DNA of 64,000 nt, from the NCBI RefSeq assembly GCF_018687675.1, contig NZ_CP061302.1, positions 1,945,229 to 2,009,228 on the forward strand, in the 5' to 3' direction. Of this stretch, positions 13,471-42,757 are shown piece by piece. The number at the start of each line of letters is the position of its first letter. Position 1 is the stretch's first letter. Position numbers and translations under genes: made by a program. Origin of the DNA: Polynucleobacter sp. MG-Unter2-18 (lineage in GTDB: Bacteria > Pseudomonadota > Gammaproteobacteria > Burkholderiales > Burkholderiaceae). Below the pieces are notes generated by a model. It had not been told where the DNA came from. It did no database searches and saw nothing but the letters and a program-made list of their open reading frames with translations.

Positions 13471-13549
13471 GAAAACCACCCGAAGGTGGTTTTCTTATCT
13501 CTTAGTGGCCCATGGCGGAATCGACCAAAGGGCCTAAGATGTCAAATCC
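13471..13549 (-). repeat. tRNA-Phe tail repeat 1 (terminator + degenerate tRNA 3' part)
   Basis: Plus-strand order: a terminator hairpin identical in stem and loop to the one after tRNA-Phe (ACCACC, CGAA, GGTGGT), then TAGTGGCCCATGGCGGAATCG, a degenerate copy of the acceptor 3' strand and T arm, then AGGGCC and an imperfect GGAT hairpin. The minus-strand lipoprotein gene stops eight bases further on. This is the tail copy farthest from the tRNA and marks the left end of the island. Confidence 0.8.
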
Positions 13550-13556
13550 TTATTAA

Positions 13557-13952
13557 TCACATCTTGATAATCTGCCACGCACCTTCTGAGCGACCATCAC
13601 CAATCTTATCACCGGGCTTGGCATCTTTAGCATAGAAATACAATGGCATGCCATTGAAGGCTAACTGCTTTTTGCCATCATCACGGGTAATAACTGAATA
13701 GCCGCTAGAGACTGCAGGGCTTCCTTCAACTAATAGTGGCGGCCAGTTCGTTGCGCACATACCATTACAAACCGACTTACCCGAACCTCGCGCATCCTTG
13801 CTGTAGGTATATAGGGTCATATTATTATTGCCGGCCATTACGCCATCGTTAGCTTTAGTAAATGGTGCTAATGCCACGCCAGTCATTGAAGCACAAGCGG
13901 CAAGAGTAGCTGTGGCGACTAAGGCAGCCAATAGACTTTTGATTCGATTCAT
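13557..13952 (-). CDS. COG4315-type secreted repeat lipoprotein
   Basis: A signal peptide with lipobox (TLAACASM) is followed by the COG4315/Lipoprotein_15 pattern: NMTLYTYSKDARGSGKSVCNGMCATNWPPLL, then a second half-repeat MPLYFYAKDAKPGDKIGDG and a WQII end. Family members are exported proteins of unknown function. One tRNA-tail repeat lies immediately 3' of the stop, so this is the first cargo gene of the island. Confidence 0.8.
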   Translation of the reverse strand: MNRIKSLLAALVATATLAACASMTGVALAPFTKANDGVMAGNNNMTLYTYSKDARGSGKSVCNGMCATNWPPLLVEGSPAVSSGYSVITRDDGKKQLAFNGMPLYFYAKDAKPGDKIGDGRSEGAWQIIKM

Positions 13953-14072
13953 GTTTACCCCTTTGTTAGTTGATTTTGTACTTTAACTCTAATTTATGTC
14001 TTTTGCTTTACACGAAATCTATTAATAAGGGCGCCATCCTAATTAACGGAGTCTCATTCGCTGGCCCAAATG

Positions 14073-14149
14073 AAAAAGCCATTCGAAGGTCGTTTTAGTG
14101 CTTCTTGGTGACCCGAGGTGGAATTGAAAAGGGCCGAGGATGCCGGATC
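14073..14149 (-). repeat. tRNA-Phe tail repeat 2
   Basis: A degenerate terminator (AGCCATTCGAAGGTCGT) is followed by TGGTGACCCGAGGTGGAATT, a mutated acceptor/T-arm copy, and GGGCCGAGGATG. The 5' GGCCC of the minus strand can still pair with the altered acceptor (GGGTC) through a G-U pair. The hydrolase gene stops seven bases beyond. Confidence 0.75.
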
Positions 14150-14155
14150 TGGAAC

Positions 14156-14998
14156 CTATTCCCCAACAATGAATTGAATTTGACCCGTTTTTATCCACTG
14201 AATGACCGCCCTTGAGGTAGCCTCTTCCCTGCCGCCCATTGAATGCAGGTGAGTTCCACCACAAACATCTCCCGTACCTTCACCACCTTTTACTGTTACT
14301 AGATTATTCTTTGAATATGCTGCCACTGTTGCGTAAGGAGTATGAACGCATTGGTCATCTTGGTGATGAACATTTAGTGCGGATGCCTTTAATGCACCCA
14401 TATCAAATGACTCTACAGAGTATCCATATGCTCGATTTCGAGAATTTGCATGCGTCATGGCTGCTGAATGAATGCTTCCCTGAATTTCATTTCCTAAATT
14501 TTTAGCGAGCCATTTTGATGAGATAGTTCCATAGCTATGGCCCATGACAAAAAACTTAGTAATTCCATATTTTTCCTTTAAGACGGCCATTATTTTTCTA
14601 ACATCGTCGGCATGCTTTGTGGAAGATCGATAATCATCATTACAAGCTAGTGGAGTGTTGCCTGGGGCTATTTTATTTTCATCGCTTGGGCAATCCATCA
14701 CAACAATGGCTATACCTGCTTGAGCAAACAGATCAGTATTATTTTGTAAGTAATTTAAGTTTCTTTTCCAATCATGTTCTGTCTTGATATTGGCAATACC
14801 AGACCAGCCGCGATAAAAAAGTAATGCTGTATCTGATGGTATTGAGGGTTTCAGAAGAATTGCTCTTTGAACAACCGGAGATTTTGAAAAAACTCCAGAC
14901 TCCCTACCAACATCGGCCTCTATGAGAATAGGGGTTATTGTTTGGGCTGTCGCAAAGTTAAAACAAGCTAAGGCACAAATACTAAATAGCCATTTCAT
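14156..14998 (-). CDS. Secreted alpha/beta hydrolase
   Basis: A signal peptide (MKWLFSICALACFNFATAQ) precedes an alpha/beta hydrolase: nucleophile elbow GHSYG, an acidic region in VHHQDDQC, and a late His in GGTHLHSMGG. Three Cys in the mature part may form disulfides. It is a distant paralogue of 36244-36978 (same order of elbow, HHQ motif and Cys). Substrate unknown. Confidence 0.72.
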   Translation of the reverse strand: MKWLFSICALACFNFATAQTITPILIEADVGRESGVFSKSPVVQRAILLKPSIPSDTALLFYRGWSGIANIKTEHDWKRNLNYLQNNTDLFAQAGIAIVVMDCPSDENKIAPGNTPLACNDDYRSSTKHADDVRKIMAVLKEKYGITKFFVMGHSYGTISSKWLAKNLGNEIQGSIHSAAMTHANSRNRAYGYSVESFDMGALKASALNVHHQDDQCVHTPYATVAAYSKNNLVTVKGGEGTGDVCGGTHLHSMGGREEATSRAVIQWIKTGQIQFIVGE

Positions 14999-15086
14999 TT
15001 CATAACCCCAGAGTTATATAGGTGAGCAGATTTGCTGACTATGAAACTCTACTCTATTAGTAAAACATTCAAGGAAACCCGCACAT

Positions 15087-15108
15087 GAAAAAGCCACCCG
15101 AAGGTGGC
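15087..15108 (-). repeat. tRNA-Phe tail repeat 3 (terminator only)
   Basis: GCCACC and GGTGGC around a CGAA loop, with a T5 run on the minus strand, match the tRNA-Phe terminator. The tRNA-derived part has decayed or been deleted. It lies 37 bases past the patatin stop and should end that transcript. Confidence 0.65.
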
Positions 15109-15144
15109 GCAAGCCGGCAATGACTAAAACCAAAGATCCTAACT

Positions 15145-16251
15145 CTATGCCCAGAATTCTTTTATTTTTGGCGCCTCAATTTTTGATCGATCGTAGCCGT
15201 TACGCAAAGCACCAGCAATTTGTTTTGGGTCAAGCAAGTCAACACCCTTAGGGGTGCCGGCAACTATCCACTTTACTTTTGTACCGGTCGCCTTAATGTC
15301 TTCAATATTTTGAGCAACGGGATGAGGAATGGTAGTGAGAATTGCACCCGTCACCCCATCAGTCAAGGTAATGACCAGAGCTCTTTTTGAGCCAGCAACC
15401 AAATCCACATGGGCTGGATTTGAGCAAATTCCCCCATCCATAACGTAACGTTGGCCCAATAATGTTGGTCCTGCTACCCCTGGCAAGGAGCTACTTGCTG
15501 CTGCACCATGCGCCAAGGGAATGCCATTTTTTCTAGCAACTTGTTGCCCTACAACAATGCGTTCGCCTGTATAGCAATCAATACCTGTTGTGAACATCCG
15601 ACCTGTAGGCCAATCTTTTTTACTATCGCCTGTTAATAATGCAACTAGTCTTTCAACGTGATCGCCGTTTAATTTATTGTTAGCCGCTAAAGCCGCATTG
15701 CCGATTATTTTGCGCGTCTCTATGCTCCCATCGGTTGCACTCATATTAATTAGGTCAGCCCTCATCTGACTTATATTGGGCTTAGTTAAAGGTGCAATCT
15801 TGGCAAAAATATCGGGGAACTTCCCAAAGAAATCAAACTCGGTTCGTAGGCGTGTAAATTCGCCCGAGAGTAGTGATGAGCCCATATAAGATCCAGCAGA
15901 GGTGCCCACTACCATTTCAGGAAGTTGGGTCATATCTAGCCCGGCCTCAATAAGGCCATGAAAGAATCCGCAATACCAAGCAATGTAATATTCTCCGCCG
16001 CCACCGAGCACCATTGTTCGATCGAGGCCTTTTGCTAATTTTGAAACCGTTGGTTTGGTCGCTATTGGCAATGACAAGCCATCATCGGCAAATAATTTAT
16101 TAGATATTTCATCGGCCTTAATTTGAATATTTGACTTTGGGTGCGTTGACTGCGCTTTAGCTGCATCAGCCATGACTCCTGAAGCACTACTAATGGCCAC
16201 AGCACCAACAGCGGAAGTTTTTAAAAAATTACGGCGTGAAGATTGCGTCAT
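15145..16251 (-). CDS. Tat-exported patatin-like phospholipase
   Basis: The N-terminus SRRNFLKTSAVGAVAISSASG is a twin-arginine signal, so the protein is exported folded. The patatin catalytic dyad is visible as the Ser in GTSAG (MVVGTSAGSYMG) and the Asp in MDGG (YVMDGGICSNP), with a glycine-rich oxyanion loop VLGGGGEYY. It probably hydrolyses phospholipid or other acyl esters in the periplasm. Single-gene unit in the island. Confidence 0.85.
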   Translation of the reverse strand: MTQSSRRNFLKTSAVGAVAISSASGVMADAAKAQSTHPKSNIQIKADEISNKLFADDGLSLPIATKPTVSKLAKGLDRTMVLGGGGEYYIAWYCGFFHGLIEAGLDMTQLPEMVVGTSAGSYMGSSLLSGEFTRLRTEFDFFGKFPDIFAKIAPLTKPNISQMRADLINMSATDGSIETRKIIGNAALAANNKLNGDHVERLVALLTGDSKKDWPTGRMFTTGIDCYTGERIVVGQQVARKNGIPLAHGAAASSSLPGVAGPTLLGQRYVMDGGICSNPAHVDLVAGSKRALVITLTDGVTGAILTTIPHPVAQNIEDIKATGTKVKWIVAGTPKGVDLLDPKQIAGALRNGYDRSKIEAPKIKEFWA

Positions 16252-16298: not shown

Positions 16299-16374
16299 GA
16301 AAACCACCCGAAGGTGGTTTTGGTATTTCTTCGTGGCCCGAGGTGGAATCAACTAGGGCTGAGGATGCCTGATC
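16299..16374 (-). repeat. tRNA-Phe tail repeat 4
   Basis: A perfect copy of the tRNA-Phe terminator stem (ACCACC, CGAA, GGTGGT), then CGTGGCCCGAGGTGGAATC, AGGGCT and GAGGATGCCTGATC. The next minus-strand gene stops ten bases beyond. Confidence 0.78.
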
Positions 16375-16383
16375 TTTAAGGCA

Positions 16384-16989
16384 TTAGTGATTATGGCCCT
16401 TATTATTCATTGGCATCTGACCGTCGATCATTTTCTGATGTTGTTTCATCATGTCGCCATGCCCATCAGGATGGCAAAACTCATGATCCGAGTTGCCACC
16501 CATTTGATGAGGGTTAGCGCTTTTGTATCCCAGAATACTTGGATCAAGCATGCCGGCGATCATGGCGATGTGTCCAAATACCAAGAACAAGGCAACGCAT
16601 ATCGCATGAATCTTTAACTTACCCATTTGATCTAGCGCTCGATTAACTAAACCAAACTCTTGTAGGGCAATCCAGATCAGCGGCAATCCTGCGATGACAT
16701 AAGTACTAACAGCGATTACATCAATCACTGTTCTCCACTCGCCTGCCTGTGTAATGGGAATAATGGCGTTAGTCACAATGTAGTAAATGATTCCAACAAA
16801 ATAAACGCCCACAGCAATCCCAGAAAAGCGATTGAGGTAATAAACAGCACCATCGAACTTGCGAGTAAAGAGTAGATATAGCTCAGTGATAGCTAAAGTC
16901 TCTGCCAAGATGATTGGGATGGCCATAAAGATAATTAAATTCCAAGGCTGATTAACAGCCAATAACTCCATGTAGTGGGTCATGTTCAT
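16384..16989 (-). CDS. Multi-pass membrane protein with His/Met-rich C-terminus
   Basis: Four to five predicted membrane helices (around residues 16-40, 54-76, 88-112 and 124-148) are followed by a ~45-residue tail rich in His, Met and Asp (DHEFCHPDGHGDMMKQHQKMIDGQMPM), which suggests metal binding on one side of the membrane. It resembles a small family of inner-membrane proteins of unknown role. The next gene upstream is a secreted Cys/His-rich protein, so a metal-related pair is possible but unproven. Confidence 0.6.
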   Translation of the reverse strand: MNMTHYMELLAVNQPWNLIIFMAIPIILAETLAITELYLLFTRKFDGAVYYLNRFSGIAVGVYFVGIIYYIVTNAIIPITQAGEWRTVIDVIAVSTYVIAGLPLIWIALQEFGLVNRALDQMGKLKIHAICVALFLVFGHIAMIAGMLDPSILGYKSANPHQMGGNSDHEFCHPDGHGDMMKQHQKMIDGQMPMNNKGHNH

Positions 16990-18549: not shown

Positions 18550-18626
18550 GAAAAAACCACCCAAGGTGGTTTTGGTATTTCTTGGTTGCCCGGGGCGGAA
18601 TCGGCCAGGACCGAGGACATGAATCC
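18550..18626 (-). repeat. tRNA-Phe tail repeat 5
   Basis: A terminator copy (ACCACC, CAA loop, GGTGGT) followed by TGGTTGCCCGGGGCGGAATC, then AGGACC and GAGGACATGAATCC. The minus-strand 5' GGTCC still pairs with the acceptor GGGCC by one G-U pair. It can terminate dps on the plus strand and the 18643 lipoprotein on the minus strand. Confidence 0.78.
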
Positions 18627-18963: not shown

Positions 18964-19042
18964 GTTTGGCTTACTGTCTATAAATCCTCAATTTCCAAGA
19001 ATTCTATACTTTTTTAACAAGTAAATTCCTGACATCCCAAAA

Positions 19043-19091
19043 TAAAAAAAACACCCGAAGGTGGTTTTGGTGTTTCTTGGTGGCCGGGTCA
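19043..19091 (-). repeat. tRNA-Phe tail repeat 6 (truncated)
   Basis: A terminator copy (ACACCCGAAGGTGGT, one arm mutated) with the same spacer as at the tRNA (GGTGTTTCT), then TGGTGGCCGGGTC, where the tRNA similarity stops after the acceptor strand. The next gene's stop codon is 8 bases further on. Confidence 0.72.
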
Positions 19092-19098: not shown

Positions 19099-19593
19099 TT
19101 ACTTTGCTGGGCGTAAATCAGCCGATCCGATGTACTCTTTAAATTGTTTACACCAAATCAGCATGCTGTTTATATCTTCTGAATTTTGTGTTTTTAAAAG
19201 ATAGAATGCGGCGCCATTGGGCTTTTTAATGCGACTGACTTCAATCTGTTGAGAGCTAAACTCATCATTATCTTTAATGGCAGGCTTGCTACTGATATAG
19301 ATGTGATAGTCCGGCCCAGGACTAGACTTAAAGTCATCACTGGATTGTAAAAACAATTGATTACCAACTTTAACTAACGACCACTCACCAGAAGAGTTGT
19401 GGATCAAATCTTGTCCCTTAGCGTTTTTATCAATTTGTCCTCGCTTGAGGATTTCGCCTTCAACTTTTTGATTGTCTTCAAAACGTGACTTAATATCTTG
19501 TGCGTGACCACGGATTGCGTCGAGAAGCTGGGCGCTTGCTGAAATTGGAAGTAGCAAGAAAACGCTTAAAAAGAGGATATTTAATTTATTCAT
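19099..19593 (-). CDS. Secreted DM13-domain protein
   Basis: A signal peptide (MNKLNILFLSVFLLLPISASA) is followed by a DM13-like domain: GEWSLVKVGNQLFLQSSDDF, GPDYHIYIS and MLIWCKQFKEYIGSADL. DM13 domains are extracellular and have been proposed to be redox or electron-transfer modules. ATG 19593 is preceded by GAGG at the right distance, so I prefer it to 19605. The promoter lies in the adjacent palindrome module. Confidence 0.72.
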   Translation of the reverse strand: MNKLNILFLSVFLLLPISASAQLLDAIRGHAQDIKSRFEDNQKVEGEILKRGQIDKNAKGQDLIHNSSGEWSLVKVGNQLFLQSSDDFKSSPGPDYHIYISSKPAIKDNDEFSSQQIEVSRIKKPNGAAFYLLKTQNSEDINSMLIWCKQFKEYIGSADLRPAK

Positions 19594-19620
19594 CCAAAGC
19601 CTCATAAAGTAACTAGCATC

Positions 19621-19762: not shown

Positions 19763-19839
19763 AAAATAGCCCAACAAGTGGGCTATTGAGATTCTTGGTG
19801 GCCCGGGGCGGAATCGAACCAAGGCCGAGGATGTCAATC
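19763..19839 (-). repeat. tRNA-Phe tail repeat 7, abutting the sodC stop codon
   Basis: The second terminator type (ATAGCCCA, TAGGGC-like loop, TGGGCTAT) is followed by TGGTGGCCCGGGGCGGAATC, GAACC, AAGGCC and GAGGATGTCAATCC. The sodC stop (TAG on the minus strand, 19840-19842) is contiguous with the element. The minus-strand GGCCT pairs with the acceptor GGGCC including one G-U pair. Confidence 0.85.
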
Positions 19840-20364
19840 CTACTTAATCAAGCCACATGCGATTCTTGGTCCTGAATTTCCAGCTGGTTGAGATTTATAG
19901 TCATCAGGATCGCGATGAACAACAACGGATCTTCCTAATATTCCAGTCGGTCCATTATTAACAGCAAATCCACTTAACTTTGCCGAATAAACCGCATTAC
20001 CATTCGCATCTGATTTTATATTTGGCATATCGCCAGCATGACTTGAGCCACTTCCTGGCATACCATGTGATTTTGTGTCTGGGTTGAAATGCCCGCCTGC
20101 GCTAGTGGCATCTGGCGAGGAACAATCCCCTTTTTCATGAACATGAAACCCTTGTTCAGCATTTGGTTTCAAACCAGAAAAATTTCCTGTAACCAGCACA
20201 TCATGGCCTTGCCATACAAAATTAACCGTTCCTTTTGTATTTGAGCCTGAACGGGAATCCAGGGTAGCCGATGCTTTTTGACCAGTACCATGTTCCATGG
20301 ACTGACAAGCCACCAACGACAAAATGGATACAGTGCCAATTAATAGAGCAGCTTTTTTAATCAT
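19840..20364 (-). CDS. sodC: Cu/Zn superoxide dismutase (lipoprotein)
   Basis: Lipobox LSLVACQS after the signal peptide, then the Cu/Zn SOD fold: GFHVHEKGDCSSPDATSAGG with copper His and the disulfide Cys, GGHFNP, SHAGDMPN with zinc-site residues, SVVVHRDPDDY and the C-terminal GPRIACG disulfide partner. It removes superoxide in the periplasm. Single-gene unit whose stop codon joins tail repeat 7. Confidence 0.93.
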   Translation of the reverse strand: MIKKAALLIGTVSILSLVACQSMEHGTGQKASATLDSRSGSNTKGTVNFVWQGHDVLVTGNFSGLKPNAEQGFHVHEKGDCSSPDATSAGGHFNPDTKSHGMPGSGSSHAGDMPNIKSDANGNAVYSAKLSGFAVNNGPTGILGRSVVVHRDPDDYKSQPAGNSGPRIACGLIK

Positions 20365-20733
20365 TATTCATCTCCTGTCTTTATGTCGGATCAGAATAGA
20401 CCTTTTGTTAATATTCTTCAATAAAAATAGGGGCCTTGCTCTAGGCAGCCTTATTGAAAGGCCTAAAACTGCATGGCAAATGAAAAAACCACCCTCGAGT
20501 GGTTTTGGTGATGCTTGGTGATAAAGAATCTAATGGTTCACCAGCCCAAAATGGTTATCCGCAGACCCACAAGCATTGGCAGCCTCTAGACGGGAGCGTT
20601 TCCAATCAAGTAATCTCTGCAAACTGAAATTTAGTTTGCTACTAGATTTTTTGATTGTCGAGAAATAGTTGATAGGGGTTTACCTTTATGTAAGTTGCTT
20701 GGGTAAACGCTGGGTTTAAAGCCTGTTAGCTTA
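20365..20733. other. Non-coding stretch with truncated tail repeat 8 and two hairpins
   Basis: 20482-20507 is a degenerate copy of the tRNA-Phe terminator (ACCACCCTCGAGTGGT) followed by a stub of the tail (CTTGGTG). GCAAACT (20619-20625) pairs with AGTTTGC (20633-20639) and is followed by TACTAGATTTTTT, which could be a terminator on the plus strand. GTTTACC (20678-20684) pairs with GGTAAAC (20702-20708). No open frame is convincing. Confidence 0.55.
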
Positions 20734-25241: not shown

Positions 25242-25296
25242 TCGTTTTAAACGACATTACGAGCAGTGATGGTAAATAAGCGTCGCTTAAATCGAC
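25242..25296. repeat. Palindrome module, variant with inner inverted repeat
   Basis: TCGTTTTAAACGACA (25242-25256) and, in place of the usual middle, GTCGCTTAAATCGAC (25282-25296). This is followed by ACGCAGGGATGA and a decayed second palindrome (AGAGGTCC). It lies upstream of phaZ and downstream of 25345. Confidence 0.7.
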
Positions 25297-25344
25297 GGTT
25301 AACCAACGCAGGGATGACCATCATCTGATTCACCTATAGAGGTC

Positions 25345-25554
25345 CTACTCATGTGACCATTCATAGTCTATATCGATAATCTCTAAAACATAGCCATATT
25401 TGTTTAGACAATGCTGATTCCAGGCAATCACGAAGTCTTTGGTATTGACATCACAATGGTAACGATTTAACAAATGAATCAAGCCATGGTCCTTCATTTC
25501 TATTTGTCCGTTAGTGGTCTTTACGATCACTGCTTTGGCATGCTTAAAGCTCAT
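25345..25554 (-). CDS. Small hypothetical protein
   Basis: A 69-residue protein: MSFKHAKAVIVKTTNGQIEM, then HLLNRYHCDVNTKDFVIAW and an acidic end (IIDIDYEWSHE). No domain recognised and no signal peptide. A GAGG-type site precedes ATG 25554. It is followed 33 bases upstream by the CDGSH gene in the same direction, so they are probably cotranscribed. Confidence 0.5.
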   Translation of the reverse strand: MSFKHAKAVIVKTTNGQIEMKDHGLIHLLNRYHCDVNTKDFVIAWNQHCLNKYGYVLEIIDIDYEWSHE

Positions 25555-25586
25555 CCTGACCTCCGATAGATTTAGATTGTCAATAC

Positions 25587-29300: not shown

Positions 29301-29302
29301 CT

Positions 29303-29626: not shown

Positions 29627-29712
29627 GTAATTCTCCAATGTAAATTTCAGACTAAGCCGCATCACAACTTAAGTTAATGAGTGATTACCCTCGAATGGCC
29701 AAGCCCTAAAAG

Positions 29713-30755: not shown

Positions 30756-30833
30756 AAAATAGCCCAGCAAGTGGGCTATTGACATTCTTGGTGGCCCGGG
30801 GCGGAATCGAACCAGGGCCGAGGATGCCTAATC
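30756..30833 (-). repeat. tRNA-Phe tail repeat 11
   Basis: Second-type terminator, then TGGTGGCCCGGGGCGGAATC, GAACC, AGGGCC and GAGGATGCCTAATCC (GGAT/ATCC hairpin intact). It lies 63 bases past the stop of the four-gene operon and should terminate it. Confidence 0.85.
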
Positions 30834-30895
30834 CACCGCCACTACAAAATCAATTTCTACTGGGGCATTCCTTCCGCCTAAACTGTCGACTCTAC

Positions 30896-31876: not shown

Positions 31877-31886
31877 TTTTGACCTA

Positions 31887-33053: not shown

Positions 33054-33076
33054 TTCAGTCTTTCATTAATTGAAAA

Positions 33077-33826
33077 TTAGTTTTTGGTTAAAGCTATTTT
33101 GTCTTTCATTACCTTTGTTTGTCTCTTGAAGTCATCCAAGACGAGTTTCTTCTGTTCTACATTTAAATATTGGTAATCTTTAATTAAGTCTTTTTGAGAC
33201 TGAGCCCAGCTATTAGCAGCCTCAACCAATTTCTTGAATTGACTCTGCCCAGAATATACGGGGAGGTATCTTGCTTCTTCAATAAGCAAGTCAATGTGCT
33301 TTTTAGCATCCGCATCAAACTCAACCGTCCTCAACAAACCTTGAGATTGATTTTGTAGCAATTCTATAAGGTTTTCTTTTCTTGCAGACCCCACCTCAGC
33401 TATAGCGTTGAATGTAGTATTTGATGCGCTGACTTGTTTCGCACTCGCCCAAATAATCAGCATGATTACATGCTGAGCAGCGATTAGACTCCAGTAGATT
33501 TTATATTCTGTAGATTTCCAAGCTAGTTGATAAAAATACAGTGTGACTAATAGTGAATTTAAAAATAAGAATACGATTAGATTAGCCCTAAAAAAACTTT
33601 CATTTTTTAGTGACTTCACAACATTTTTAGCCAACACCAAAAACACCCATAGTGGACTTAATATCCAAGGCAGCATCGCAAGCGAATAATAAACACTTTC
33701 TTGCGAGGGTGCGACATCCAAAAAAACAGGTCTCCACAGTATCCCTAGTAACGCAAATAACAATGAGACGCTAAAACCGACAGCAATTAACAAATATGGT
33801 GTCATATCTTCCTTAAGGTTAGCCAC
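33077..33826 (-). CDS. Four-helix membrane protein with cytoplasmic helical domain
   Basis: Four hydrophobic segments in residues ~10-125 (LLIAVGFSVSLLFALLGIL, LAMLPWILSPLWVFLVLA, NLIVFLFLNSLLVTLYFY, YWSLIAAQHVIMLIIWAS) are followed by a ~120-residue charged helical domain. No family recognised. It overlaps the SPFH gene by eight bases, so they are translationally coupled. Confidence 0.6.
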   Translation of the reverse strand: MANLKEDMTPYLLIAVGFSVSLLFALLGILWRPVFLDVAPSQESVYYSLAMLPWILSPLWVFLVLAKNVVKSLKNESFFRANLIVFLFLNSLLVTLYFYQLAWKSTEYKIYWSLIAAQHVIMLIIWASAKQVSASNTTFNAIAEVGSARKENLIELLQNQSQGLLRTVEFDADAKKHIDLLIEEARYLPVYSGQSQFKKLVEAANSWAQSQKDLIKDYQYLNVEQKKLVLDDFKRQTKVMKDKIALTKN

Positions 33827-34898
33827 CTAGAATTTTGGCTTTTTCTAAATTAAATTCTTCCTCACTCAGAATTCCACTGGTTCTCAGCTCTCCTAATTCC
33901 TTTAGTAGCTTCATCTTTTGGCTTGGATCGGCAGCTACCGAGCCAATTGCACCCGATACTTGTTGCCCAAAGACTTGTCCCACCGGTATTCCTACGCCCA
34001 ATCCAAGCCCCATATTTAGAGCGCCCCCGCCTTCAGCAGGCATATTTTGAAACCGATTATCAGCATTTCCTTTTGCTCCCGTAAATCCAGCAACTCCCTC
34101 CATCGCATTAAAACTTCTTTCTTGCTGGTAATTAAATCCAACAATATCCATTTGCGCTTTTTTTGCTAAAGCTTCTCTAAGGGTCCTAATTGAAGGATCA
34201 TCCTCTTTAACATCGATGTGATTCACAAAAAAATTCACAAGCTTTAACCCAAACTCTTCAAGTTGTGATTGCAGCTCTTGTTTTATTGCGTCTGAAATTT
34301 CTGTTAATTGGGTGGCAATTTCTAAAACGGAAACCCCCTCAGATCCTGCCATTTTTTTCGCAATAGTAGTTTTTGCTATTGTTAAGATCAACCCTCTAAA
34401 GTAATCCTTTAGCTTATCCTGAGTAAACTCGGTCATTGTCCCAACAAGCTTTACCAAAAACTTTCGCGAGTTTTCAATTTGCACCGCATATTGACCATGC
34501 GCTTGTATAGGAATGACAATTCGGTATTTTGAATCTTGAAGTCTGATAGGCTCACTTGTTCCCCAACGAACATCTAGCGGTATAGCCCTATTTAGGAACC
34601 AGACTTCAGCTGTAAAAGGTGATCTCCCAAAGGGTAGATTAAGAATTTTTCCAATGACGGGTAAATTCTCTGTTTTTAGAACATGTCTACCGGGCCCAAA
34701 AGGGCCGTCCATCGCACCACCACGAAATAAAACGGCCTCTTGCGATTCATGAACAATTAACTGTGTCCAGGTTGATAGTTCAGTACTCCCGAACTTCCAA
34801 GCATAAACTTGATCTATCGGCACGGCAATCTTGCCTGACCCTTGCTGGGAGTTTTTATTGGTTTCCTCGTCCCACTTAACGACATCAATAATTGCCAT
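33819..34898 (-). CDS. SPFH-domain protein with C-terminal SHOCT motif
   Basis: An SPFH/Band-7 domain covers residues ~45-250 (VHESQEAVLFRGGAMDGPFG, GRSPFTAEVWFLN, and the helix EFGLKLVNFFVNHIDV). A Gly-rich linker follows, and the C-terminus KLLKELGELRTSGILSEEEF is a SHOCT motif, seen on many membrane-associated or oligomeric proteins. This build is like Bacillus YdjI-type SPFH proteins, which form membrane scaffolds. It heads the four-gene operon. Confidence 0.82.
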   Translation of the reverse strand: MAIIDVVKWDEETNKNSQQGSGKIAVPIDQVYAWKFGSTELSTWTQLIVHESQEAVLFRGGAMDGPFGPGRHVLKTENLPVIGKILNLPFGRSPFTAEVWFLNRAIPLDVRWGTSEPIRLQDSKYRIVIPIQAHGQYAVQIENSRKFLVKLVGTMTEFTQDKLKDYFRGLILTIAKTTIAKKMAGSEGVSVLEIATQLTEISDAIKQELQSQLEEFGLKLVNFFVNHIDVKEDDPSIRTLREALAKKAQMDIVGFNYQQERSFNAMEGVAGFTGAKGNADNRFQNMPAEGGGALNMGLGLGVGIPVGQVFGQQVSGAIGSVAADPSQKMKLLKELGELRTSGILSEEEFNLEKAKILGG

Positions 34899-36072: not shown

Positions 36073-36237
36073 TAGTCCGAGCGGTCAATCAGGATTTGGC
36101 ATCCTGAAACTAGATTTAGAGTTCTCAGAAAGATAGCCACGCTGGGCTAAGGTAGTCGCACCATCTGCTACTTTGGCGCCACTATGGATTCTTGGTGGCC
36201 CGGGGCGGAATCTACCAGGGCCGAGGATGTCTGATCC
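36073..36237 (-). repeat. 160-bp repeat copy B ending in tRNA-Phe tail repeat 12
   Basis: About 90% identical by eye to 29139-29300: TAGTCCGAGCGGTCAATCAG, the CAGGAT/ATCCTG hairpin, a decayed terminator, and the tail from 36193 (TGGTGGCCCGGGGCGGAATC, with the T loop altered to TCTACC). The hydrolase stop is seven bases beyond. Confidence 0.8.
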
Positions 36238-36243: not shown

Positions 36244-36978
36244 CTAATTTGCCAAAATAAATTTGGCGGCGGCATTGACCATCTGGTCTTCTACCTTATT
36301 GAACCCATGGTATGCCAATCCCATACATGGCAAGCCTACGTCTTCTCCCCCATCAATCATGACTAATTCTGATTTAGTTTCTTTACTTCGCCCCTTAATG
36401 ATTGATTCTGATGCGCTTATTGGTGTAGCGGCGCACGCTTCTTTTTGATGGTGGATTGCCATTACCGGCTTACTAAAGTTATTGCCTAAAGTTTCCCCAA
36501 TATGTGTCCCGGCAATAATGATCCCAGCTACTGCCCCAGACTTCTCGCTCTGATTCGCAAATTGAACTGCTGTTACCGTTCCCATGCTGTGTCCAAAAAT
36601 CCAGACGGGTACATTGAATTTATTTCTGTAATATTTAACGACACTTTCAACTCGTGCTATGTGTTCAGATTTGCCGCGTACATTCCCACGCCTTGCGTCA
36701 CCCAAATCATAGGGCGAATCCACCAATACTGAATTAATTCCATACTGCTGCCATAATCCTGCCGAACGATTTAGCGGATTTTGCTTGGTGGTTGACCCGT
36801 CAGACTTTAAATCTAATACCCCATCGCCACCAATGAATAGAAGAACAACTGCTTTTGGCTTGGCAGTCTCAATTAGAAATGTTTTTGTAGGTGTCTCACC
36901 AGTCTGTGGAACCTCTAGCAACTGTCCATAGACAAAAGCCGGCACGAAAAGCGATATCAGACAAATAATTATTTTCAT
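36244..36978 (-). CDS. Secreted alpha/beta hydrolase, paralogue of 14156-14998
   Basis: From ATG 36978 (GGAGACACGCTCA upstream) a signal peptide MKIIICLISLFVPAFVYGQ precedes a hydrolase with the elbow GHSMG, AIHHQKEACAATP, and a C-terminal AYHGF with a likely catalytic His. Same order and spacing of motifs as the 14-kb gene. The palindrome module at 37022 lies 44 bases upstream and a tRNA tail directly downstream: a complete unit. Confidence 0.72.
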   Translation of the reverse strand: MKIIICLISLFVPAFVYGQLLEVPQTGETPTKTFLIETAKPKAVVLLFIGGDGVLDLKSDGSTTKQNPLNRSAGLWQQYGINSVLVDSPYDLGDARRGNVRGKSEHIARVESVVKYYRNKFNVPVWIFGHSMGTVTAVQFANQSEKSGAVAGIIIAGTHIGETLGNNFSKPVMAIHHQKEACAATPISASESIIKGRSKETKSELVMIDGGEDVGLPCMGLAYHGFNKVEDQMVNAAAKFILAN

Positions 36979-37021
36979 TGAGCGTGTCTCCATTAGCTTT
37001 AAATATTAGCATCATCTACGT

Positions 37022-37140: not shown

Positions 37141-37218
37141 AAAATAGCCCAACTAGTGGGCTATTGAGATTCTTGGTGGCCCGGGGCGGAATCGAACCAC
37201 CGACACAAGGATTTTCAA
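37141..37218 (-). repeat. tRNA-Phe tail repeat 13: exact 45-nt 3' half of tRNA-Phe
   Basis: After a second-type terminator, bases 37174-37218 match the last 45 nt of the tRNA-Phe gene without a mismatch: ACCA end, acceptor 3' strand, T arm, variable loop and anticodon arm up to TTTTCAA. Then the sequence changes (CTCTGCCCCCCC), as expected for a recombination junction in the anticodon stem-loop. This is the only tail copy that extends that far. Confidence 0.9.
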
Positions 37219-37503
37219 CTCTGCCCCCCCAGACTAAACTCCCGCTAGATCTCAAAAGGTTCACCCCACCCGAGTCTAACTTTGTGCACAAAACTTTGAT
37301 GGAGTGATCTAAGAGACTGAATTGGTTGAGTTATTTTGACCCACGCAAGGAGTGAGGGAAAGTTTGGTGGCGTGATGGGGATTCGACTGACGCAGGGGAG
37401 ATAACTCCTTGTTGTGATCGGGGATACCTCACACATGAAGTGTCCTTTAAAAGGACAAAATAAAACCACCCCGAAGGGTGGTTTTATCCAGAACAAGGGC
37501 CAA
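37219..37503. other. Gene-free stretch with partial palindrome module
   Basis: Contains the middle motif TTCGACTGACGCAGGGG (near 37382) and TGTCCTTTAAAAGGACA (37441-37457), the second palindrome. The first palindrome is missing. An open minus frame at 37245-37496 runs through the palindrome and the terminator and is not credible as a gene. Confidence 0.5.
37462..37487 (-). terminator. Intrinsic terminator of the 37504 gene
   Basis: A 10-bp stem AAAACCACCC / GGGTGGTTTT around CGAA, 17 bases past the stop. It is the same stem type as the tRNA-Phe terminator, but here next to a palindrome rather than a tail. Confidence 0.85.
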
Positions 37504-38946
37504 CTAATTTAGTTTGTACACATAACATGCTGTACGAACATTATTTTTGTATTTATTTTGTTCACAATTTTGCAATGCATTTTGAGTTGCTTGTTGCGGT
37601 GTTGGGCTGTTATAGCTCATAGTGCAATAACTATTTGTACCGTCATAAGCTACAGCATAGGCCTTATTGTTTCCATAACCAGGCTTGTTATAATTTGCAT
37701 TGAAGTGATTCGTGCACTGAGAAGGCAATACCTGAGGATTTGCTAGGGCACGTTTTCTCTCCTCCTCTTCCCTTGCCGCCTCTTGCTTCGCAAATTCCTG
37801 ACGTTGAGCCTCTTCAGCTTTTGCAAGCTCCTCCTGTCTTAATGTTTCTTGCTTAGTCTCTTCTTGACGTTTTGCCTCTTCAGCTTTTGCAATTTCCTCT
37901 TGCTGGGTAATTTCAGCCTTACGATCAAGCTCTAGCTTATATTGCCAACCACCATATCCGATGCCGCCAATCACGGATGCCGCAACCAATCCAATCACAA
38001 TTTTTTTTGCTACCTGGGGGTCAATTGAAATTGGGTTCTTAAAAACATCTGGGTTGCCCTGACTAGAGCCTAAAGCCCCTGCCTGAAAAGGTTGCTGGTG
38101 AGGTGCTGAGTTATTTGTACCTGTTGAGCCGCCATGAATAACTCCACCCGATGAGATCGAGAGTATTGCTTTCATTAAGTCAATGGCTAAGTAAAAAATT
38201 ACAAAAAATACATATGCTAAAAATGGGTAGGCTAGGCCTCCCAGTACCTGGGCTACGCCTTCTATAGACTCTAACCCACCGGCATATATTTCAAAACCAC
38301 TGCCTTTAATTAATCTGAATAATCCAAATATTAAATTTATAGTTCCAAAAATAGTAGCGGCACCAAAAATTATTCCAGCCATTCTTACTGATGATTTGTA
38401 GCCAAAAGCCAAAATTGCTATTGCATCCTCACCTGCTGATGTATTTTTATCAACATTAGTAGAGACCAGGCTGGGGTGGAGACTAAAGCACACTGAAAAT
38501 ACCAGTGCCACCAGAATTAGCACAGTCCATTTAAGAATATCTGGAGAGCTCATCTTAATCGCTAAAACCATACCTCCAAGAGCCACGAAAATTATGCCGA
38601 GCACTCCTATGAGGCCAATAACATCTATATATTCTTTGCTACTGATTTTTGTTGGATTGTTATGAACAACCGTCTTGCAACTAACCAAAAATTTTGAGCC
38701 AATGTAGTAACCCACTGCAATAGCAATCACCCACCCAATACCCGCTAAAAATGCAATGAAGGAATCTGTCTTAATGGCCGCTGTTAAACCCATTAAGAGT
38801 CCCACTATTGCCGCAAGAGGAGCCGCATAAGATGCCGCCTGCTCTAGTCTTTGCTCACTTTTTACAAAAAACTCGACGCTAATTGCTTTTCTAAAAAATT
38901 TAATCAGATTATCAATAATCTGATTGCTGTGGTCCATCGGGTTCAT
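37504..38946 (-). CDS. Multi-pass membrane protein with coiled coil and DUF4189-like end
   Basis: From ATG 38946 (TGGAGACAAA upstream). About six membrane helices occupy the first 260 residues, then a Gly/Ser linker and one more helix (KIVIGLVAASVIGGIGYGGW). A Glu/Ala/Lys coiled coil with repeated EELAKAEEAQRQE units follows, and the C-terminal ~75 residues have AYAVAYDGTNSYCTMSYNSP and QNALQNCEQNK, as in exported DUF4189 domains. No overall family recognised. It is separated from its neighbours by repeats. Confidence 0.55.
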   Translation of the reverse strand: MNPMDHSNQIIDNLIKFFRKAISVEFFVKSEQRLEQAASYAAPLAAIVGLLMGLTAAIKTDSFIAFLAGIGWVIAIAVGYYIGSKFLVSCKTVVHNNPTKISSKEYIDVIGLIGVLGIIFVALGGMVLAIKMSSPDILKWTVLILVALVFSVCFSLHPSLVSTNVDKNTSAGEDAIAILAFGYKSSVRMAGIIFGAATIFGTINLIFGLFRLIKGSGFEIYAGGLESIEGVAQVLGGLAYPFLAYVFFVIFYLAIDLMKAILSISSGGVIHGGSTGTNNSAPHQQPFQAGALGSSQGNPDVFKNPISIDPQVAKKIVIGLVAASVIGGIGYGGWQYKLELDRKAEITQQEEIAKAEEAKRQEETKQETLRQEELAKAEEAQRQEFAKQEAAREEEERKRALANPQVLPSQCTNHFNANYNKPGYGNNKAYAVAYDGTNSYCTMSYNSPTPQQATQNALQNCEQNKYKNNVRTACYVYKLN

Positions 38947-39150
38947 TTTGTCTCCATTTTGGCTTTTTGGGATTTGTGAAATTTTTATTCGATTCGAATA
39001 TATCAAACTATTCTGAAATTTTATGTATTTTTACTTTACCTTTAGGAAATTATTCAATAAGAGGTGCTTTTGCAGGGCATTTCAATTAATTCGGTTGTAA
39101 ATTCATCTAATTATGTTAAAAATTAGAGTAATTAATTTTTATCTACATTT

Positions 39151-39795
39151 ATGAAAATCCTATTTTTAGCCCTCTCCGCATCTTTCATTCTTGGGGCATG
39201 CTCCACTACCCCTAATAAATCTGCCGAAAGCGCTAATCTTAAAGATCGGGCTATTGCTACAGACTTTACGGATGAGGGCATCAAAATCACCTATACCTTT
39301 ACTGGAAAACTCGATTCCATCGAGGTGTATGGGCAAGCCGAAGCATGGAGAGGAAACGTAGAGGCTATCGCTGAAGCAGATGCCATGGCTAAATTAACTA
39401 AGTTTGTTAATGGCAGGAATGTGTCTACAGAGCGCCGCGTCAAGGTCATTGGTCGCTCAATTGAAGAGGCGCAAGACAACAAACTGGACAAATATAAGAG
39501 TCAGGATGGTACGATTAATGTCACAGACAAACAGGTAGATTACGAGCCCTATGTTGATAAAAATCAACAGTCATCCCAAGATACCAGCGCCATGCGTAAC
39601 GCTAAGGTCATTAACGAGACAATCGTCACTACAGTAACCAATATCACCTCCAAGGGTCGCCTTACTGGCGTTCGTAAAATTCGCGACTTCCAGCGCAATG
39701 ATGGAAAAACTTATGTTGCTGTCTATGTATGGAGCGATAAAGACCAGGCTACCTCTGAATACATCCGTAATCGGATGCAAGGCAAATCACAGTAA
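39151..39795 (+). CDS. Putative lipoprotein, paired with 39798
   Basis: Lipobox ILGACST after a short signal peptide. The mature domain (EAWRGNVEAIAEADAMAKLTK, RRVKVIGRSIEEAQDNK, YVAVYVWSDKDQATS) has the alpha/beta look of LPP20-type outer membrane lipoproteins. It ends three bases before the next start, so the two genes form one unit. The upstream region resembles 30612-30696. Confidence 0.6.
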   Translation: MKILFLALSASFILGACSTTPNKSAESANLKDRAIATDFTDEGIKITYTFTGKLDSIEVYGQAEAWRGNVEAIAEADAMAKLTKFVNGRNVSTERRVKVIGRSIEEAQDNKLDKYKSQDGTINVTDKQVDYEPYVDKNQQSSQDTSAMRNAKVINETIVTTVTNITSKGRLTGVRKIRDFQRNDGKTYVAVYVWSDKDQATSEYIRNRMQGKSQ

Positions 39796-39797
39796 TC

Positions 39798-40949
39798 ATG
39801 CGTTTTAAAGTAATTGCATTAGCTATTTGTCTATGCTGTGCAGTTACGGCTAAAGGCCAAATACTTGGGGCCTTAGCCCCCAGCCCCCTGACTATTGCCC
39901 TAACTGTTGGGCAGTGGTTAGTAAAAGACTCTCAAAAAGCCTATTACGTTCAGGTTGAGTCTACTGCGGCTACACCCGCCCAAGCGAGAGCTGAAGGCTT
40001 TAAATTAGCGGTTGGCCAAGCAGTTGGAACATTGGTAGTGGCTGAGAGTGAAGTGAAAAATCAACAACTTGTTCGTAATGAAATCATTCAATACTCATCT
40101 GGCTATATTCAGGATTTTAAAATCTTAGGCGAGACTCACGTAGGCTCCATGACGAGAGTTGTGATGGATGTCTGGGTGACTGAGAGCAAAATTGCTGACA
40201 GACTACTTAATGTAAGTAAAGCTGATGGTGCGGTGGATGGTGAAAAGTCTGCGGCTCAATATCGCTCTAACTTAAATCAAATGCAATCGGGTGATCGTTT
40301 GCTAGAGTTGATTTTGAATGACTTTCCTAGCAAATCATTTGATATCAAGGCTGGTAAGTCTATTGTGACAATGCCCGCCAGAAGCATTCAAATTCAAATA
40401 CCCATCAATATTTCTTGGAATAAGGAATACATCTCTAGCCTAACTGAGGTACTAGATAAAGTACGCCAAGGCAGAACTGCAAATTACTATGGGGGACCAA
40501 ACTGGGCCGCAGTTATCCGCTACAAAAATAAGTCGGATTGGAGTATGTCTACAGCCTCGTTTAGAGACACAATTAAATTAGAGCTCATAGAATCCAATCT
40601 GATTAAATCTGAACCACTTATTAAGTTAATCATCAAGGATGAAGCCGGATATCACCTTTTTGGGCAATGCTTTCGTTATCCCGGATTATCAGGGGCTTAT
40701 TTGGGCGAGCCCGTTCCTCTCATTGGTTACGTTAAAGATCGTTATGGGAATACTGCGGGTCAATTTTTCAGCTATGGGGGCGAATTTGGCGAAAGAACCA
40801 ATTTGAAATCTGCTGACTTAAGTATTTTTGGGGACTTTAAAGATGAACCGGTCCTAATAATTGATTTGCCGCCCAATATTGCGCTAGAGCGGCTAGGGGG
40901 GATGAGTAAAACTGAGATAACTGTAGTTCGTGGAAGTAGTTGCAGATAA
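39798..40949 (+). CDS. Exported protein with FlgT-N-like domain
   Basis: A signal peptide (MRFKVIALAICLCCAVTAKG) is followed by VQVESTAATPAQARAEGFKL and NEIIQYSSGYIQDFKILGE, similar to the N-terminal domain of FlgT and related envelope proteins. The remaining ~200 residues are beta-rich and not recognised. Three bases after the lipoprotein stop. It faces tail repeat 14 convergently. A role with the lipoprotein in the outer envelope is inferred. Confidence 0.55.
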   Translation: MRFKVIALAICLCCAVTAKGQILGALAPSPLTIALTVGQWLVKDSQKAYYVQVESTAATPAQARAEGFKLAVGQAVGTLVVAESEVKNQQLVRNEIIQYSSGYIQDFKILGETHVGSMTRVVMDVWVTESKIADRLLNVSKADGAVDGEKSAAQYRSNLNQMQSGDRLLELILNDFPSKSFDIKAGKSIVTMPARSIQIQIPINISWNKEYISSLTEVLDKVRQGRTANYYGGPNWAAVIRYKNKSDWSMSTASFRDTIKLELIESNLIKSEPLIKLIIKDEAGYHLFGQCFRYPGLSGAYLGEPVPLIGYVKDRYGNTAGQFFSYGGEFGERTNLKSADLSIFGDFKDEPVLIIDLPPNIALERLGGMSKTEITVVRGSSCR

Positions 40950-40970
40950 CTACAGTGCCAAGCCCAAAAG

Positions 40971-41045
40971 AAAATAGCCCAACAAGTGGGCTATTGAGAT
41001 TCTTGGTGGCCCGGGGCGGAATCGAACTAGGGCCGAGGATGACTG
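40971..41045 (-). repeat. tRNA-Phe tail repeat 14, nearest the tRNA
   Basis: Second-type terminator (usable from both sides), then TGGTGGCCCGGGGCGGAATC, GAACT, AGGGCC and GAGGATGACTGACTC. The GGCCC/GGGCC pairing is intact; the GGAT hairpin has decayed. The lipoprotein gene stops about 85 bases beyond, and a decayed first palindrome (TGTCTCTTTAAACAACA, 41061-41077) lies between. Confidence 0.82.
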
Positions 41046-41132
41046 ACTCTATCTCTGGACTGTCTCTTTAAACAACATATCAATCTAATCAAATAAATGA
41101 TTTTACTTCGACTGGTCTGAAAAATAATTTAG

Positions 41133-42227
41133 CTAAATTTTATTTTTTCTAAGTTGATCATCAATTGTTTTTTGTTTTAGCTCTTCTACTTTCTTTTTTT
41201 CAAGCTCAACCGCCTCAGAGAATTCTTTTTTATATTTTTTATTACTATCTATAATTGATTCATAATTTTGTGGCTCTGCGAATTTACAGATAAAACTTGT
41301 TTTTCTAAGACAAGAATAAGGCCTAAAATTCGTTCCCCCAAAACATGTTGAGTATCTCACTACTGAAACAGTTAGCGTATCTCTTTCAACTCTAATTGAT
41401 TCAATTGTATCTTCATATTTGTCATCCAAGGGATATGATTCAACAACCTTAAATTGATGATAATTATCAGGCTTATCACTTACATCTTTAATTAATTCAT
41501 ATTCTTTAAACGATGAATCCAATTTTGACTTTGCTGCTTCATATGAAGTGAACCTAGCAATATCGTATCCGCTCTTAGAAAAGGATAAAAAATTAGCCGT
41601 GGCATTATTTGACTCCCCCGAACATGTCAAAGCATATTCAACTTTATCTGCCATTCTTTTTTCTTCATACCTTTCTTGCTCCCTATTCAAAGCAGAATTT
41701 ACGAAGCTATGTGACTTGAGTGTTAATGCCTGTGCCTCCACGTTTGTGACAACTTTAATGAAATCTGCTTGATTTACGTCAGGATGAATTATATTTAAGG
41801 GGCCAGCGACGCCTCTAAAAAGAAAAATGTTACCCGTTTTCAACTTTGAATTTTCAAAAGACCTCCACTGTATGTCTACCTTCTTGCCTCCCTCATACAG
41901 CCTGACTCTTTTACTATCTCCCTCATAAAATGCCAGCCATAGTATTTGTTTATTCTGACAATTTTTACGATAGAAATCTCCTCCGTTTTCCCTTTTAAAT
42001 TCTCCAGCTGAAAAACAGTAGTTTGGGCCTCTGTATGCTACGTCTTCGAAATCTTTTTTTGTATCAAAATTACCATAACTTTTTATTTCAGCCATTTCTT
42101 TGGCATCGGCAAATCCCAGCGATACCGCTAATTTATCTTCATTCTTTAGTATTTTTTCCGATTCATTGCCACAACCAGTCGCCAAGATTGTCGAAATTAT
42201 GACTACATAAAATTTCAATATTTTCAT
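41133..42227 (-). CDS. Putative lipoprotein of unknown function
   Basis: The lipobox ILATGCGN follows a signal peptide. The 345-residue mature part is charged, AT-rich in codons, with several Cys (YCFSAG, ENCQNKQ-like, TCFGG, SYCLR/FICKF) and a C-terminal Lys/Glu helix. No family recognised. Its base composition is lower in GC than the core genes on either side, suggesting recent transfer. It is the cargo gene closest to tRNA-Phe. Confidence 0.55.
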   Translation of the reverse strand: MKILKFYVVIISTILATGCGNESEKILKNEDKLAVSLGFADAKEMAEIKSYGNFDTKKDFEDVAYRGPNYCFSAGEFKRENGGDFYRKNCQNKQILWLAFYEGDSKRVRLYEGGKKVDIQWRSFENSKLKTGNIFLFRGVAGPLNIIHPDVNQADFIKVVTNVEAQALTLKSHSFVNSALNREQERYEEKRMADKVEYALTCSGESNNATANFLSFSKSGYDIARFTSYEAAKSKLDSSFKEYELIKDVSDKPDNYHQFKVVESYPLDDKYEDTIESIRVERDTLTVSVVRYSTCFGGTNFRPYSCLRKTSFICKFAEPQNYESIIDSNKKYKKEFSEAVELEKKKVEELKQKTIDDQLRKNKI

Positions 42228-42454
42228 AATTATTTTGTTTGGGTGTTGGATTAAATGAAAAAATATTAATTGAATATTTAAAGAATATCAATTACCTATC
42301 AATTTATACTAGACCCCTATATTTTTCTATATACAATTTTTAATCTGGATTTCGACTACCCTCTTCATTCCCACAATAATCAAGCCAATAATTACATAGA
42401 AACACCGAGGGGTCGCAGGATAGCTGGCCCTGCGGTGGTGGCGATAATTGGACT

Positions 42455-42649
42455 ATGAGGAATTATGAAGTTATCTCCATTGATCCTACCGACCAAATGA
42501 ACCACTGGGTTATTACCTATCGAACAGCTAATGGCCTCACCGACAAGCAATCTGTCGTGGCAATTGACTCCAACGATGCTTTTATTGTGTTTCGTAACCA
42601 AATGATTAAAGAAGCTAAGGCTAAAGTTAAGTTTATTAAACCTAAATGA
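42455..42649 (+). CDS. Small hypothetical protein next to tRNA-Phe
   Basis: A 64-residue protein: [40 protein letters not shown], then a Lys-rich end. Looks like a small beta-alpha domain; no family recognised. It ends at the shared terminator of tRNA-Phe, with which it is convergent. An unsupported overlapping minus frame through the tRNA is not a gene. Confidence 0.5.
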
Positions 42650-42650
42650 A

Positions 42651-42672
42651 AAAACCACCCGAAGGTGGTTTT
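42651..42672 (-). terminator. Terminator of tRNA-Phe, parent of the first-type tail terminators
   Basis: AAAACCACC / GGTGGTTTT around CGAA, nine bases after the tRNA 3' end. The same stem, loop and the GTGTTTCT spacer recur at 16.3, 18.6 and 19.05 kb next to tRNA tails. Confidence 0.88.
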
Positions 42673-42681
42673 AGTGTTTCT

Positions 42682-42757
42682 TGGTGGCCCGGGGCGGAAT
42701 CGAACCACCGACACAAGGATTTTCAATCCTCTGCTCTACCGACTGAGCTACCAGGCC
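42682..42757 (-). tRNA. tRNA-Phe (GAA), anchor of the island
   Basis: Acceptor GGCCTGG pairs with CCGGGCC, with A73 and encoded CCA. The anticodon loop TTGAAAA on a GGATT-type stem gives GAA, and the T stem is GGTGG/CCGCC. A TATAAT (minus strand, plus 42768-42773) lies ten bases before the 5' end. All fourteen tail repeats lie downstream of this gene in the same orientation, as expected if it is the attachment site. Confidence 0.96.

Follow-up and report, generated by a model that had tools for sequence, protein, structure and literature searches.

A probable gene-cassette array anchored on tRNA-Phe in Polynucleobacter

Introduction

The attC recombination sites of integrons carry the core motifs GTTRRRY/RYYYAAC. 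Additive flexible genomic islands at tRNA genes have been described in Alteromonas, Ca. Actinomarinales and Ca. Methylopumilus, and the nearest known case to the one examined here is flexible genomic island 2 (fGI-2) of Ca. Methylopumilus, in which the final 20 nt of tRNA-Lys are repeated (PMC5217437, PMC4119200, PMC7771536, PMC10872708). Toxin-antitoxin cassettes have been reported in Alteromonas integrons (PMC4119200), and tycheposons are described as elements of 4-200 kb with a tyrosine recombinase (PMC10872708). Here we analysed a 64,000-nt stretch of the genome of Polynucleobacter sp. MG-Unter2-18 (NZ_CP061302.1, positions 1,945,229 to 2,009,228; hereafter the window), in which small gene units closed by a conserved sequence, the tail, are lined up 3' of a tRNA-Phe gene. 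Comparison between genomes showed that these units are shuffled, gained or lost at their tails, and the locus is probably a tRNA-anchored gene-cassette array whose units are exchanged site-specifically at the tails by an enzyme acting in trans.

The array resembles integrons and superintegrons in its small gene units, its co-oriented arrangement at an anchor, its shuffling and the sharing of units between species, and, as in integrons, we found mobile cassettes with a site at the 3' end of the gene. Toxin-antitoxin cassettes are a further likeness to the integrons reported from Alteromonas (PMC4119200). The differences are that the site here is derived from tRNA-Phe and has neither attC core motifs nor a covarying fold, that the units carry terminators, and that the anchor is a tRNA gene. 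Neither GTTRRRY nor RYYYAAC is present in the consensus of 48 tails. The source genome (G000) has six genes matching PF00589, none of them inside the window's array, and three small PF00589 proteins, from G018, G000 and G002, the only three scored, fell far below the integron-integrase cut-offs. Because the array has no attC motifs, no conserved fold and no PF00589 gene, we do not file it as an integron; it works like an integron that lacks attC-type sites, and fits the general idea of additive tRNA-linked islands.

With those islands the locus shares a conserved tRNA target with repeats of the tRNA 3' end, and variable cassettes that are present in some relatives and absent from others; the boundaries of this variation lie at the tails, though not at one base position. 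It differs in its small, often single-gene units, a genus-wide cassette-specific arm, a tail that often lies at the stop codon and a terminator borne by the unit, features that do not appear in the parts of the island descriptions consulted here. Like tycheposons, the units are cargo elements linked to a tRNA; unlike them as described in the part of that source consulted, consecutive sites are spaced at a median of 1,106 bp (206 units), and no recombinase appears among the 25 of 47 cassette families listed. Integrase-bearing tRNA islands use the same tRNA, and the larger insertions found here end in a tRNA copy that starts at the anticodon loop, but no integrase was found in the small cassettes.

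Results

Single units are gained, lost and shuffled at tails

The source genome is a single contig of 2.0 Mb. Its closest named relative that we found is Polynucleobacter hallstattensis, in which the gene upstream of tRNA-Phe has 91% protein identity and which aligns with the window at 88% identity over 11.6 kb, the alignment ending at tRNA-Phe. In these two genomes the 60 nt leading up to the core of the tail behind sodC, a Cu/Zn superoxide dismutase gene, are identical; past that core P. hallstattensis carries an extra unit of 1,061 bp with its own tail, and behind the core of this second tail the window sequence resumes. A preliminary description of the window, made from the letters alone, had named the precise presence or absence of single units between tails as the pattern to look for among relatives, and this unit displays it in a comparison between species. 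We saw neither a constant gene content with gradual divergence only nor tails scattered genome-wide, the two patterns that the description had set against its own proposal. Furthermore, a 4-kb block that is 99.5% identical in the two genomes lies 13 kb from the tRNA in the window, and in P. hallstattensis begins at the tail that closes the first cassette behind tRNA-Phe.

In the loci used for this comparison, alignments of at least 300 bp between genomes had 260 ends; 151 of them lay no more than 60 nt from a tail in one or both genomes and 115 did so in both, compared with 10.5% of random points in one genome (here, as in the shared-unit and arm comparisons below, pairs are non-independent and one cassette may count repeatedly). 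Among 224 shared unit pairs, 17 were at least 95% identical, some of them between species whose flanks are 70-90% identical. A core reference existed for 68 of the 224, and in 50 of these 68 the cassette lay more than 3 points above the higher reference; one example is 100% identical over 512 bp, with reference regions at 73.5% and 69.9%.

The array in the window

Fourteen copies of the tail or its terminator lie 3' of tRNA-Phe in the window, every one in the orientation of the tRNA, as the preliminary description had reported. Ten are cassette-type tails, one has a tRNA-like arm (37170-37221), and three are degenerate (15.1, 19.05 and 20.5 kb), in agreement with the earlier tally of eleven clear copies, two stubs and one terminator alone. 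The 24-nt tail end GATTCCGCCCCGGGCCACCAAGAA, with up to three mismatches, occurs ten times in the window, always on the minus strand and including tRNA-Phe itself, and was not found in any of 100 shuffles. R1, a 50-nt tail model built from 48 tails with the window's own among them, identified 12 minus-strand sites at E≤1 from 13500 to 42730 (the ten cassette-type tails, the 37170-37221 copy and tRNA-Phe) and none in the rest of the window.

The description had also placed a minus-strand gene on the upstream side of each copy, which holds for all 14 but the 20.5 kb copy; at the other 13 a minus-strand open reading frame (ORF) of 80 aa or more ends no further than about 100 nt away. Its further statement that no copies lie outside 13.4-42.8 kb is borne out for the window and not for the genome, which also has a few tail copies, at about 1.324, 1.325, 1.575 and 1.606 Mb, together with a weak match at 1.159 Mb. 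ARAGORN detected no intact tRNA in the stretches fetched around the first four of these positions (L114, L123, L113), and one of the tails there is a tRNA-Phe remnant from position 13 onward. The features of the array, from the tRNA outwards, are as follows.

42682..42757, minus strand: tRNA-Phe (GAA), the array anchor; 76-nt sequence identical in 36 of 39 genomes
42678..42701, minus strand: tRNA-Phe 3' end, the 24-nt core common to the tails; matches GATTCCGCCCCGGGCCACCAAGAA
42649..42672, minus strand: type A terminator immediately 3' of tRNA-Phe, interpreted as the first cassette's 5' part
41023..42677, minus strand: unit 1, ORFs 41133-42227 and 42392-42658; no Pfam match
41000..41050, minus strand: cassette tail site, then type B terminator (R1, 58.5 bits)
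37194..40999: unit 2, ORF 37504-39006 (minus) and ORFs 39151-39795 and 39798-40949 (plus); no Pfam match
37170..37221, minus strand: tail with tRNA-like arm from the anticodon loop, the kind that ends larger insertions
36244..36993, minus strand: unit 3 gene, alpha/beta hydrolase; stop-to-tail distance 7 nt
36189..36237, minus strand: cassette tail site, then type C sequence, where no terminator was found (R1, 59.8 bits)
30896..34898, minus strand: unit 4, run of four genes (Band 7/SPFH, TPR and two without match)
30785..30834, minus strand: cassette tail site, then type B terminator (R1, 63.4 bits)
29812..30360, minus strand: unit 5 gene, DUF4410
29742..29790, minus strand: cassette tail site, then type B terminator (R1, 59.6 bits)
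29303..29665, minus strand: unit 6 gene; stop overlaps tail
29254..29304, minus strand: cassette tail site, then type C sequence, where no terminator was found (R1, 58.7 bits)
25294..29304: the 4-kb block 99.5% identical to P. hallstattensis
20478..20520, minus strand: degenerate tail stub and terminator
19840..20364, minus strand: unit gene, Cu/Zn superoxide dismutase (sodC); stop at tail
19792..19839, minus strand: cassette tail site (sodC tail; R1), exact insertion point of the extra 1,061-bp P. hallstattensis unit
19099..19605, minus strand: unit gene, DM13 domain
19037..19088, minus strand: degenerate tail stub and terminator
18579..18622, minus strand: cassette tail site (R1)
16384..16989, minus strand: unit gene, DUF6803; cassette family present in 8 compared genomes
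16327..16374, minus strand: cassette tail site (R1, 43.6 bits)
15145..16251, minus strand: unit gene, patatin-like
15085..15107, minus strand: terminator only
14156..14998, minus strand: unit gene, alpha/beta hydrolase-like (weak match)
14102..14149, minus strand: cassette tail site (R1, 38.0 bits)
13557..13952, minus strand: unit gene, Lipoprotein_15 repeat protein
13500..13550, minus strand: cassette tail site, most distal (R1, 43.9 bits)

A tRNA-Cys gene (21814-21888, plus strand) lies within the distal part of the array. The 17-bp palindromes TGTCGTTTTAAACGACA / TGTCCTTTTAAAGGACA occur at 15 places between 17426 and 37457, compared with 0.03 expected in the window, and three pairs of them are spaced 46 bp apart; two pairs come after a type B terminator, and some palindromes mark further alignment breakpoints. 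Counted with up to one mismatch, 13 of 15 lie inside the array in G000, 11 of 11 in G016 and 12 of 13 in G012. One of the outlying tails of the source genome has such a palindrome about 90 bp away, and another has it at 3.5 kb.

A conserved site with an arm of its own

The consensus over 48 cassette tails from several genomes is AGGATnAGGCATCCTCGGCCCTGGTCGATTCCGCCCCGGGCCACCAAGAA. Its right part, from about CGATTCC, is the 3' end of tRNA-Phe, while the left arm, which is common to cassette tails and resembles an altered anticodon arm, is absent from the tRNA. In the window's ten cassette-type copies the match to the tRNA is limited to the last ~20-25 nt, with mismatches in the older ones. The idea in the preliminary description that the tails are 3' fragments left behind by successive insertions is therefore not supported in that simple form, as each unit brings a conserved left arm for which the tRNA has no counterpart. 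The alternative raised there, that the tail is a recombinogenic repeat in its own right, is to this extent partly correct. A second kind of tail, found at the ends of larger stretches in arrays, equals the tRNA from the anticodon loop on, and its left flank is often like AGCGGTCTATCGGAGGATAT.

Over the 48 tails, two-sided change was seen in none of seven predicted pairs, and we rejected a folded single-strand site like attC on this lack of covariation. GTCTWD, a second upstream motif, occurred at 62 of 224 sites compared with 10 of 224 random points, a suggestive excess, although the motif is not universal. Among 54 pairs of tails behind nearly identical gene ends, 38 have an arm identity below 85%. 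It seems that the arm (positions -26 to -1 relative to the core) is either swapped or evolves more quickly than the flank beside it.

Gene content and orientation of the units

Unit counts were made on stretches of 250-2500 bp. With ORFs of at least 80 aa called mechanically, 162 units comprised 101 with one ORF, 34 with two, 16 with three or four and 11 with none. The longest ORF ran in the direction of the tRNA in 123 of 160 units (two further units had no ORF), and in 72 of the 117 co-oriented units ending in a cassette-type tail its stop codon lay less than 50 nt from the core. A terminator-like hairpin follows within 55 nt of 221 of 267 sites, compared with 14 of 426 random windows.

Of the 92 families formed by the 156 cassette proteins, 57 have a single member. 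We searched Pfam with 47 representatives, one per family, taking only co-oriented proteins whose stop codon lies no more than 60 nt from the core. The 25 of 47 families listed include transporters, acetyltransferases, SodC, uracil-DNA glycosylase, BLUF, patatin and others, and no recombinase family. Toxin-antitoxin cassettes recur, with a BrnT family in eight loci of eight genomes, a Phd family in seven loci of six genomes and a Gp49-like family in three loci. The partner gene was examined in four of these loci and had a Pfam name in three (BrnA, YoeB/ParE and a helix-turn-helix (HTH) protein), and the BrnT-BrnA and Phd-YoeB/ParE cassettes occupy differing positions from locus to locus.

Distribution in the genus and beyond

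The tail model matches 59 of 61 genomes of the genus, with at least two matches in 56 and at least five in 41, the tRNA counted. Among 71 pooled loci, 63 contain sites, and all 269 sites are co-oriented within their locus, which is a real test only in the 55 loci with at least two sites (261 of the 269). Where an intact tRNA lies beside them, 139 of 139 distinct sites are 3' of it (39 genomes; 140 of 140 with duplicates). An order-wide sample of 200 genomes, three of them in the genus, was searched with the stricter filters used for many genomes, and the other 197 had at most four matches each; among the matches listed outside the genus, one site in G194 scored 46.6 bits and the rest at most 37.9 bits, the score of the tRNA itself.

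The G194 site (L127), in another family of the order, closes a BrnT-BrnA unit with a cassette-type tail adjoining tRNA-Phe on a contig of 3.2 kb; this may reflect transfer beyond the genus, or contamination of the G194 assembly. Another locus (L129; G076:C1:1780000-1796000) has four consecutive cassette-type tails with no tRNA found in 16 kb and is possibly an array away from tRNA-Phe. Viral contigs held no exact match to a tail pattern, and in plasmids and phages the terminator part alone was matched, in 6 and 7 records respectively. In the titles and abstract openings of the literature we found no account of the array in Polynucleobacter and none pairing the genus with tRNA-Phe; an earlier mention may exist in a 2017 paper in Applied and Environmental Microbiology on P. 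asymbioticus islands.

The joint and its terminator

While tRNA-Phe is unchanged in 36 of the 39 genomes, the sequence directly after it falls into at least four classes, which implies either that the joint lies at the very end of the tRNA, within its last 20 nt GATTCCGCCCCGGGCCACCA, or that other outcomes were lost by selection. The letters after CCACCA, unclassed at 57 of 242 sites, track the class of the downstream terminator: AGAAAC or AGAAAT precedes type A at 88 of 115 sites and AGAATC precedes type B at 39 of 52, and AGAATT stands at 10 of 10 sites preceding the conserved end of larger insertions. Together with the hairpins that follow the sites, this tracking indicates that the terminator belongs to the incoming, downstream unit. 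tRNA-Phe would thus stay intact and take its terminator from the next unit, and this terminator may protect tRNA-Phe expression. In the cleanest pairs (the window with P. hallstattensis, and G010 with G013) the entire arm stays with the upstream gene.

Discussion

The preliminary description had pictured separately mobile gene-plus-tail units at one tRNA in an integron-like layout, and the comparisons above bear this picture out. The mobile unit would consist of a terminator, an upstream region, mostly one gene or a toxin-antitoxin pair, and the conserved tail, and units would be joined head to tail within the tail. They may excise as small circles, which site-specific recombination would then insert at the 3' end of the tRNA or into another tail; an entering unit would restore the tRNA 3' end and supply a terminator, so that insertion there does no harm. 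Most likely the enzyme is a tyrosine recombinase that the larger islands at tRNA-Phe supply in trans and the units do not encode, and natural transformation is a plausible route between cells. Whether the arrays amount to a second, independently evolved cassette system beside the integron, genus-wide, with a site descended from tRNA-Phe, an intact tRNA as dock, unit-borne terminators and a trans-acting recombinase, is a broader claim to which we give a little less than an even chance.

A candidate enzyme is a small tyrosine recombinase of ~190-260 aa with little beyond the PF00589 catalytic domain, whose nearest models are Xer recombinases, at scores far below their cut-offs. It is present in 33 of 61 genomes of the genus, in up to five copies per genome, and shares a locus with tRNA-Phe in ten of the genomes examined, a count biased by several loci (L113, L115-L120, L130) that were fetched for such genes. 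Its neighbours had no Pfam match in five of six cases. Recombinases were found only in some larger stretches of arrays and in none of the small cassettes. As an obligatory partner the small recombinase was rejected, given its presence in 33 of 61 genomes and its weak link to tail number, and it stands as a candidate only. A serine recombinase is unlikely, with PF00239 in one of five tested genomes, that of the window alone. Five genomes (L115, L116, L117, L121, L122) have a displaced 5' half of tRNA-Phe, which spans positions 1 to ~33-39 and is found several kb away on the upstream side of the intact gene; in L115, L116 and L121 a small tyrosine recombinase lies between the two. We read these displaced halves as another insertion type, at the anticodon loop.

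Several observations weigh against site-specific exchange by a trans-acting enzyme. No recombinase was tied to the tail site; genomes with the small recombinase have barely more tails than those without (mean 7.9 compared with 5.5, p=0.065), and G063, G065 and G051 have tails although each has just two PF00589 genes, interpreted as XerC and XerD. Across 120 sites, tail decay showed no gradient with distance from the tRNA, and insertion at the tRNA first therefore lacks support. comEC is present in five of five genomes tested, which makes homologous recombination after transformation possible. Finally, where the same upstream gene precedes a different terminator class, the arm is at least 85% identical in just 16 of 54 pairs (random tail pairs 3.1%). 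In 40 such pairs identity is 0.81-0.85 at -28 to -17 (random 0.63-0.65), but linkage is near random at -12 to -5, just after CATCCT (0.78 compared with 0.70-0.75). The pattern suggests two positions for cassette joints, the core in some cases and the neighbourhood of CATCCT in the arm in others, or else a further process that exchanges arms. A single fixed crossover in the last 20 bp for all joints, which holds at the tRNA and in the cleanest pairs, was dropped as a general rule, the arm often being exchanged too, and the spread of cassette-to-cassette breakpoints weakens the case for one fixed crossover.

This spread across arm and core, and not in one place, speaks for a different explanation, in which homologous recombination after natural transformation shuffles the units, the tails and terminators serve as short homologies, the tails are remnants of old island insertions, and no dedicated recombinase is involved. 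comEC and the missing age gradient are in keeping with it, as are tails in genomes without a tyrosine recombinase beyond two Xer-like genes, and type A terminators would add further homology. However, in comparisons with differing terminators, such as that of the window with P. hallstattensis, the sequences have an identical stretch of just ~30 bp in common at the joint, and neither the conserved left arm behind many unrelated genes (48 tails) nor the single orientation of sites 3' of the tRNA is explained. We regard this explanation as unlikely, though not negligible.

That ordinary integrase-bearing islands inserted one after another at tRNA-Phe and then decayed to single genes between tails appears improbable. 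The same arrays do hold larger insertions that end in anticodon-loop tails, some with the small tyrosine recombinase; but the median unit is 1.1 kb, the gene of a unit often runs with the tRNA and stops at the tail, whole units are common to several species, and the arm of the window's ten cassette-type tails is unlike the tRNA. That tail and terminator form a small mobile repeat spread behind pre-existing genes, the spreading part of the alternative raised in the preliminary description, draws on the common arm absent from the tRNA and the few copies elsewhere in the genome, but genomes differ by whole units and not by tails alone, and the sites are co-oriented 3' of tRNA-Phe, which largely refutes the idea and leaves it hardly credible.

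The site-specific exchange of units that we favour predicts that circles form, that the crossover falls within the tail and that an enzyme acts in trans. It also suggests a way in which a tRNA gene survives repeated insertion, the joint restoring its 3' end and each new unit bringing a terminator. If it is true, a plain tRNA attachment site can give rise to cassette capture of the integron kind, and the arrays would provide a concrete route for the exchange of single genes in a freshwater genus with small genomes.

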